A stretch of 32,202 bases of DNA from Candidatus Magasanikiibacteriota bacterium (GTDB taxonomy: Bacteria > Patescibacteriota > Patescibacteriia > Magasanikbacterales > UBA922). Positions within the stretch are counted from its first letter, which is position 1. Every line of letters begins with the position of its first letter. Below, piece by piece: positions 53 to 2,147 of this stretch. Location of the stretch: assembly GCA_018650085.1 (NCBI GenBank), contig JABIGQ010000028.1, positions 1 through 32,202 on the forward strand, given 5' to 3'. The notes under the pieces are model-generated. The model did no database searches and was not told the DNA's origin. It worked only from the letters and a program-made list of their open reading frames with translations. The position numbers and the translations under genes were made by a program.

Positions 53-658
53 ATGAAGGACATAAAAACCATTTTACAAGAAAAGAGGTATTTATATCTC
101 ATTATTACAAAAAAAGATCCAGATGCATTTGGTGCATTATATGATCTTTATATAGAGCGAATCTATCGATTTATCTTATTAAAAATAGATAATAGAGAAG
201 AGGCGCAAGATCTTACCAGTGATGTATTTTTGAAAGTATGGCATTACTTGATAGATGGAAAGAAAAAGGATGTAGGGAGTTTTAGTGGATTAGTATATAC
301 CACTGCTCGCCGTGTAGTGATAGATACCTATCGTACTCGTGCAAAACAAAAGACTTGCCCTATAGAATATGCAGATACAATATTATATACAGACGGAGTG
401 CTCAATGCAGAAAACAAGCAGGATGCAGCACAAGTATTAAGATCTATAAAACAATTAAAACAATCATATCAAGAAGTACTTCTCCTTCGCTATGTCGATG
501 GACTGAGCATGAAAGAGATGGCACAAATTTTAGAAAAAAATCATACAAATGTCCGTGTATTATTACACAGAGCCACAAAAAAACTTCAAGCATTATATGA
601 GCAAAAACATCCAAACAATATTCACACAGATAAAAGATCAAGAGATGATGTCTCCTGA
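53..658 (+). CDS. RNA polymerase sigma factor, ECF/sigma-70 family
   Basis: Region 2 motif DPDAFGALYDLYIERIYRFILLKI...AQDLTSDVFLKVW; region 4 LLLRYVDGLSMKEMAQILEKNHTNVRVLLHRATKKL. Confidence 0.92.
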   Translation: MKDIKTILQEKRYLYLIITKKDPDAFGALYDLYIERIYRFILLKIDNREEAQDLTSDVFLKVWHYLIDGKKKDVGSFSGLVYTTARRVVIDTYRTRAKQKTCPIEYADTILYTDGVLNAENKQDAAQVLRSIKQLKQSYQEVLLLRYVDGLSMKEMAQILEKNHTNVRVLLHRATKKLQALYEQKHPNNIHTDKRSRDDVS

Positions 659-1814
659 TCGTGATTGGGTGTCAAAAAATAAAGCACAAATGATGAGCCA
701 AATTCGTAATACAGTAGATGAAACGGTAGAACGTAGTATGGCAGATGCATTGTTTGGTATGGTAGATATCTTTGTTCCGGCAAGGATGTTTTTTGTTGCC
801 AGGGCAATGGCAGTATTTGCATTAATTATCTCAATGGTAGGAAGTGGGTGGTTAGCAAGTGTGAGTGCTTCTTCAAATAGTTTACCTGGTGATACATTAT
901 ATGGAGTAAAACTTGCTACAGAGAGAACAAAAGTAATGGTAGCTCATGCTACAGGAAACAATGAAGCAGTGACAAAGTATCATATGGCTTCTGCACAGAA
1001 GCGTTCAAAAGAATTAGAGCAAGTAAGTGAAGAACCAGCACGTGTAGAAGTGGGAATAAAAGAATTAAAAAAATCAGTAGAGTTAACAACAGAATCATTA
1101 GAAAAAACAAAACAAGATGATCCAGAGGCTGCAAAAGCATTGGCAAAAGATATTACAGAGCAGACAAAAGACATATCTTTATCTCTAAAAGAAGTATCAA
1201 GAGAAACTGCAGAAAAAGATATTGATATCGCAAAAGAAGTCCTAGATACAAAAAAAGCAGTGACAGATACAGGATTAGATGCTGTTGAGTTATTGGTAGA
1301 AGAATCTGTAGAGGGTATAGGAGAAGAAGATGCTGCTATGAAAGTATTGGTAGAGGAAAAAATGGAAGAAATTTTACTCAATGCAGAGGATATAAAACTG
1401 GTTGCTGAGGGAGTAAGTGATGCGGTATCCACTACTATGAATATGGTGGAAGTAGAAGAAACTACAACTACTATAGATGTAGTAGTTGAAGAAGAACAGC
1501 TTGTAGAGGAAGAAGTTATACCGGAAGATTCAATGGCTTTATTAGAAGAAAAAGTACATCAGGTTGATTTAAGTGTAAAGGAAGCAGATGTAGTTGTAGA
1601 AGAATTGCGAGTATTACTTGATGCCAATGATATGGTAGGGGCAGTAGAAAAAGCAAAAGAATTACAAGATTTATCATCTCAGACAGAAGGAGCATTGGTA
1701 GATATGGTAAAAGATGTAGAAGACAGTAATGAAGAAAAAATGGTAGAAGTAGTAAACGATGATGTAGTTTTAGAAGATGAGATAACTTCATCTAGTACAG
1801 AAGAATCTTTATAA
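597..1814 (+). CDS. DUF5667-like membrane protein with long acidic C-terminal tail; candidate sigma regulator
   Basis: N-terminal PDRDWVSKNKAQMMSQIRNTV, one hydrophobic segment (FFVARAMAVFALIISMVGSGWLASVSA), then SLPGDTLYGVKLATERTKVMVA; start 597 chosen over ORF-track 549; overlaps sigma gene by 62 bp. Confidence 0.75.
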   Translation: MSKNIQTIFTQIKDQEMMSPDRDWVSKNKAQMMSQIRNTVDETVERSMADALFGMVDIFVPARMFFVARAMAVFALIISMVGSGWLASVSASSNSLPGDTLYGVKLATERTKVMVAHATGNNEAVTKYHMASAQKRSKELEQVSEEPARVEVGIKELKKSVELTTESLEKTKQDDPEAAKALAKDITEQTKDISLSLKEVSRETAEKDIDIAKEVLDTKKAVTDTGLDAVELLVEESVEGIGEEDAAMKVLVEEKMEEILLNAEDIKLVAEGVSDAVSTTMNMVEVEETTTTIDVVVEEEQLVEEEVIPEDSMALLEEKVHQVDLSVKEADVVVEELRVLLDANDMVGAVEKAKELQDLSSQTEGALVDMVKDVEDSNEEKMVEVVNDDVVLEDEITSSSTEESL

Positions 1815-1821: not shown

Positions 1822-2100
1822 TATACCTAGATAGCATAACATATTATGTTATCTCTGGTGCAAAAAAGCACTATTTATATGTATGATATTTCCTAGATAT
1901 CATATGGCAACGGTCGCTTATATGTTTTATGAGCGACTCATGCCATATGGTAGGTCTTTTTCAGAGGCAATCTAGGGGTCGTGGGAAGTGTTTCCTGCGA
2001 TAAAAATCGCGTTGTTTAATAACGCGTCCACTTGGCCAGAAAGGTTGACCCTAGATAGGGGGTTGGTGGTAACATAACTTTATTCTCATGTTACTAGACG
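1822..2100 (+). ncRNA. Candidate structured 5' leader / cis-regulatory RNA upstream of the S-layer-like gene
   Basis: Hairpins 1829-1854, 1858-1871, 1901-1949 (two-part stem), 1970-2056 closing helix with internal AAGTG/CACTT, GCGAT/ATCGC and GCGTT/AACGC helices, and 2069-2094; CCTAGAT at 1826, 1892 and 2050 all complementary to ATCTAGG at 1970-1976. Confidence 0.6.
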
Positions 2101-2147
2101 TTTCATTTTAGAAATGCGCTATAAGATGAGAGAGAATTATTTATTTT

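Follow-up and report, generated by a model that had tools for sequence, protein, structure and literature searches.

The DNA that we analyzed (the window) is a stretch of 32,202 nucleotides from a Candidatus Magasanikiibacteriota bacterium with a genome of 1.0 Mb. The region studied here is the gap between a pair of genes, encoding an ECF-type sigma factor and a DUF5667-like membrane protein, and a gene for a very large protein that we call S-layer-like (Table 1). At the place of the weakly matching DUF5667-like gene, one homologous locus (L107) carried a clear DUF5667 protein (E 1e-11). A rough DUF5667 signature was seen upstream in 10/27 and 7/14 loci, counts that say little because many of the upstream genes are cut by the locus end.

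The named relatives of the S-layer-like protein belong to Magasanikbacteria, Uhrbacteria, and other bacteria of the Parcubacteria group. The full 1248-aa sequence had no match in Pfam, NCBIfam, or the PDB, and neither Pfam nor NCBIfam recognized an S-layer-homology domain in it; the predicted structure of its N terminus (mean pLDDT 72, pTM 0.53) had no usable relative in the PDB. Because no known domain matches, the product is only presumed to be an S-layer or main coat protein. Its N-terminal part recurs in several other open reading frames of the same genomes (for example, in four places in genome G018), which hints at a shared surface domain that has no Pfam name.

Table 1. Genes and RNA features at the 5' end of the window
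Feature	Position	Strand	Evidence
ECF-type sigma factor gene, upstream neighbor	53..658	+	Pfam Sigma70_r2 / r4_2; NCBIfam sigma70-ECF superfamily above cutoff
DUF5667-like membrane protein gene, upstream neighbor	549..1814	+	Pfam DUF5667 E 0.024, below curated cutoff
Two 5' leader hairpins (about 1832-1855 and 1856-1873), variable between genomes	1832..1873	+	RNA fold
P1 5' arm (CCTAGAT)	1892..1898	+	pairs with 1970-1976; own versus swapped arms across genomes
P2 hairpin, family-wide TACTGTATGGC ... GCCATACAGTA element	1898..1952	+	inverted repeat, 80% complementary
P3 hairpin, sequence variable	1954..1968	+	RNA fold
P1 3' arm (ATCTAGG)	1970..1976	+	as 5' arm; P1 probability about 0.95 in sister genome
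P4 hairpins (1978-2001 and 2008-2026), variable	1978..2026	+	RNA fold
Core element P5/bulge/P6; P5 = 2028-2032 with 2065-2069 and 2035-2037 with 2061-2063	2028..2069	+	R3 match, constrained fold, covariation in homologs
Conserved bulge motif, AAAGGTTGA in the window, AAAGGTCGA in most genomes	2040..2048	+	motif count, base frequencies
P6 hairpin CCCT-AGAT-AGGG, includes CCTAGAT 2050-2056	2049..2060	+	constrained fold; homologous P6 covaries
P7 hairpin, GAC (2097-2099) opposite GCGC (2116-2119)	2083..2132	+	pair probabilities near 1
AU-rich start region without Shine-Dalgarno (SD) sequence	2133..2147	+	T before ATG, SD-like 4-mer counts
S-layer-like surface protein gene, 1248 aa	2148..5894	+	relatives in 82/95 genomes (same genus, family, order, or class)

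The region from 1815 to 2147, which we take from its position to be the transcribed 5' untranslated leader of the S-layer-like mRNA, folded at -114.5 kcal/mol, compared with a shuffled mean of -75.5 kcal/mol (z -7.8), and the subdomains 1892-1976 and 1970-2056 reached z values of -8.7 and -5.3. A BLASTN search with the leader returned a convincing E-value for a single genome, of the same genus, and we therefore gathered homologous regions through the downstream protein, taking the upstream DNA of 70 of its relatives. In the 250 nt before the start codon, 68 of 69 homologous leaders had z values below -3 (median, -5.6), and folding them revealed a recurrent structural plan. Very stable hairpins of variable sequence were present in all of the leaders; the first of the two at the 5' end in the window is kept in the same-genus genome. 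Rfam 15 gave 0 matches at the gathering cutoff in the window and in 20 homologous loci, with only chance-level hits at a relaxed threshold, and no description of this RNA was found in the open-access literature searched, the coverage of which is incomplete. A structured leader outside the recognized riboswitch classes had already been proposed at this place in a sequence-only reading of the window, and that proposal stands: a match to a known family was sought and none was found, while homologs with abundant compensatory changes were.

The same reading had gone further and proposed a switch in which ATCTAGG at 1970-1976 pairs either with CCTAGAT at 1892-1898, enclosing a long hairpin, or with CCTAGAT at 2050-2056, enclosing a multihelix domain, with a third CCTAGAT at 1826-1832 as a further competitor. 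All four words lie at these positions, and both the long hairpin (arms 1898-1922 and 1928-1952) and the multihelix fold of 1970-2056 are present. The first pairing is the helix that we call P1, and it is conserved. Across 32 genomes of the window's family, the P1 arms, taken with a 15-nt flank, fit their own partner better than swapped partners, and 0 of 10,000 permutations reached the observed value. The P1/P2/P3 domain as a whole is conserved within this family, and a counterpart of P2 was found in nearly all of the family's leaders.

The other two pairings behaved differently. In the ensemble of the window's own genome, P1 had a probability of about 0.75, the alternative (1970-1977 with 2049-2056) had about 0.25, and the third pairing had 0; the corresponding forced folds were at -114.5, -113.8, and -108.9 kcal/mol. 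Thus, on paper, two pairings only 0.7 kcal/mol apart compete in this genome and the third never forms. However, the alternative showed no excess of pairing among the 32 genomes (2,315 of 10,000 permutations reached the observed value), and its probability fell to about 0 in the sister genome, which differs in the P6 sequence and in which P1 reached about 0.95. It also takes up CCTAGAT 2050-2056, which the conserved plan places in P6, within the 5' arm and the loop. The CCTAGAT word itself is not rare, occurring 5 times in the 32-kb window versus 3.1 expected by shuffling. Since the alternative lacks excess in the family and is absent from the sister genome, the competition is best seen as a local coincidence, although this one genome may have a behavior of its own. 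Covariation in the competing stems therefore speaks for P1 and not for the alternative; one set of helices is conserved, and a switch between CTAG helices is very improbable.

That reading did not single out the most conserved parts of the leader, which are the AAAGGTYGA bulge with P5/P6 and the P7 stem. The sequence AAAGGTCGA, with at most one mismatch, was found between -215 and -50 in 66/70 leaders, compared with 1.4 expected by shuffling, at a distance of 65 to 203 nt from the start codon (median, 120). Its nine positions were conserved, in percent, at A86 A91 A97 G90 G100 T100 C94 G100 A90, values that lean high, since the motif itself served to select the positions and two of them were set by eye. 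The motif occupies the 5' side of a bulge, one-sided and about 9 to 12 nt long (NNAAAGGUCGA), that breaks the rod formed by helix P5 and hairpin P6. In 56 matches of the covariance model R3 (described below), double-sided changes occurred in 14/14 pairs of P5/P6, 92.1% of the cells were paired (98% for P6), and 268 cells had double-sided changes, compared with 84.7 in shuffles. The covariation score was 0.871, versus 0.234 for shuffled alignments and at most 0.128 for slid partners; these alignments are fitted to the model, which biases the pair counts in favor of the structure, but the slid controls score far lower. Two other roles for the motif were considered. Pairing of its AAAGG part as an anti-SD site was put aside, given the distance from the start codon and a GGTCG part that is more constant than the first A's. 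For a pseudoknot between the bulge and P7 (GGUC with GAC), genomes without room for P7 still keep the motif, and this pairing is beyond the reach of covariation because both sides hardly vary.

For a first covariance model (R1), we used 16 leaders, none of them from a genome of the window's family. R1 recovered six held-out leaders from within that family (L072, L053, L039, L051, L036, and L069; E 4e-8 to 0.18), all in the position expected, and iteration produced models R2 and R3. On fresh named genomes, R3 found 11/11 Uhrbacteria-type leaders that were absent from its training (L147-L155, L157, and L158; E 6e-6 to 0.16), including L157, the motif of which is too diverged for a simple pattern. 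Over 95 whole genomes, every match up to an E-value of 0.022 lay directly upstream of the S-layer-like gene, one per genome, and no orphan copies occurred among the clear matches. Over 384 genomes across the phylum, the matches were members of the class, among them a new family (G350, with a DUF5667 gene upstream), plus three weak ones outside it (G359, G336, and G457; E 0.003 to 0.018) that we regard as noise, as they adjoin unrelated genes and are no more than chance predicts. The element therefore accompanies this gene and, at the sensitivity of the search, is limited to this class. Conserved structure, compensatory changes, and a fixed place before one gene are what generally mark a cis-regulatory leader, and all three are found here. 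As judged by sequence and covariation, the element is an uncatalogued cis-acting RNA family, conserved across the class before this one gene. A separate trans-acting small RNA that merely lies upstream of the gene would suit an element so compact, stable, and well delimited, but the same gene follows every clear match within the motif distances given above and orphan copies are missing among those matches, which makes this the most improbable of the explanations that we considered. A second, paralogous surface-protein gene (L133) lacks the element, which does precede the gene at L131 in that genome.

The copy in the window is a diverged member of the family. The best R3 match in the window, with filters off, was at 2028-2070 (13.9 bits, E 0.18), which is the homologous place, and the unconstrained fold favored a GGCC/GGTT hairpin over P5. 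The homology of this copy rests also on its position, the motif, the sister genome, and the accompanying P1, P2, and P7.

Between the core and the gene lies P7, a hairpin with a GAC/GCGC inner loop. GCGC was present on its 3' side in 48/70 leaders, compared with 3.9 expected, and GAC was present in the 5' half of 40/45 P7 stems (19% expected). When P7 arms were swapped between leaders, they fitted far less well than with their true partners (z 12). The hairpin ends mostly 11 to 20 nt before the start codon and is missing where the motif is less than 90 nt from the start (8/70 leaders). The start region that follows is the least paired stretch near the gene; in 69/70 leaders a T directly precedes the ATG, and an SD-like 4-mer was found in only 18/70. 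Across the window, an SD-like word preceded only about 4 of 21 gene starts, and initiation in this genome seems to be largely SD independent.

The folded leader probably controls or stabilizes the message of the S-layer-like gene. We lean, with modest confidence, toward a cis-acting leader-RNA family in which the bulge is bound by a trans factor or lends the message stability; a regulatory role is inferred. A trans-acting factor would recognize the bulge, and in some lineages the P7 loop as well; a protein is most likely (the surface protein itself, a ribosomal protein, or an RNA chaperone), and binding of this putative factor would set translation initiation on the surface-protein message or the lifetime of that message. 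The rod-like hairpins would hinder 5' decay and P7 would keep the start region open; a rearrangement between CTAG helices would not be needed. Ribosomal-protein leader RNAs are autogenous protein-binding leaders of this kind, in which a compact helix has a conserved one-sided loop near the start codon and a single transcript is the target. The present leader shares with them the compact helix, the one-sided loop near the start, and the single target; unlike them, it precedes a surface-protein gene, and no Rfam leader family matches it.

A constitutive leader that stabilizes the mRNA or enhances its translation, without sensing or a specific factor, a role already put forward for other S-layer genes, is a tentative second reading. 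The hairpins would guard a very abundant message at its 5' end, with P7 leaving a clear landing site at the start codon, as the very stable, variable hairpins in all leaders and the open, SD-poor start suggest. Leaders similar to that of Lactobacillus slpA exist in other S-layer genes. The slpA leader itself, described as the stem-loop leader of a stable mRNA (Boot et al. 1996, as cited in PMC6482533), also speaks for this reading, since in the cited part of that source it is, like the present one, long, structured, on an S-layer mRNA, and thought to protect the mRNA against decay. It comes from a different phylum, however, and a conserved bulge motif does not appear in the description given in that part of PMC6482533. 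Protection by structure alone needs no near-invariant nine-letter bulge amid freely changing stems. Because the nine bulge letters are almost invariant and the surrounding stems change freely, we favor a specific factor over mere stabilization.

Covarying stems around a compact, near-invariant core not far from the start codon would fit a riboswitch, in which a small molecule or ion linked to the cell surface (a cell-wall precursor, a cyclic dinucleotide, or Ca2+) binds to the bulge core and access to the start region changes through P7. A riboswitch candidate also exists upstream of S-layer-homology genes in other phyla: the SLH motif of Synergistaceae, Clostridia, and Negativicutes (Firmicutes), the function of which is unproven (Stav et al. 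2019, PMC6429828). Like the present leader, it is a structured RNA upstream of S-layer-type genes, whereas it belongs to SLH-domain genes in other phyla and the present one to a protein without a recognized domain in Patescibacteria, a distinction based on host range and downstream gene. A metabolite riboswitch is nevertheless unlikely, because the element has only one target gene and no conserved mutually exclusive helix was found among the 32 same-family genomes. We found no two mutually exclusive conserved folds that control a terminator or start site, as a riboswitch would have. Terminator-like patterns exist inside the window's leader, but an unsystematic look across the leaders saw no recurrent terminator, and the conserved letters are few for a metabolite aptamer. 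More speculative than the constitutive leader, although less doubtful than the metabolite riboswitch, is a sensory leader-RNA class of Patescibacteria in which the AAAGGUCGA bulge would directly sense the state of the cell surface, possibly as unassembled surface protein, a cell-wall precursor, or an ion, and set the production of the presumed main coat protein.

To our knowledge, gene regulation in these ultrasmall bacteria, most of them uncultured, is very poorly understood. A leader RNA that nearly always precedes the presumed main surface-protein gene, and whose core hardly varies, offers a concrete handle on it: the RNA is short enough to be made in vitro, serve as bait for its binding partner, and be probed for ligands. 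It could show how cells with genomes of about 1 Mb set the amount of their coat protein, apparently without SD-guided initiation, and the element would be a new entry for RNA-family catalogues.

The part of the leader 5' of the core differed between lineages. Within the window's family, the 3' arm of P2 (GCCATACAGTA, at 1941-1952 in the window) was conserved in sequence, and the 5' arm allowed wobbles and mismatches (TACTGTGTGGC and TACTGTACGGC), a pattern that would fit a second partner for the 3' arm. In leaders of other families (e.g., L045, L047, L049, L090, and L091), the P1/P2/P3 domain gave way to a long, rod-like hairpin in which a GGAGAGAGAAA-like 3' arm recurred.
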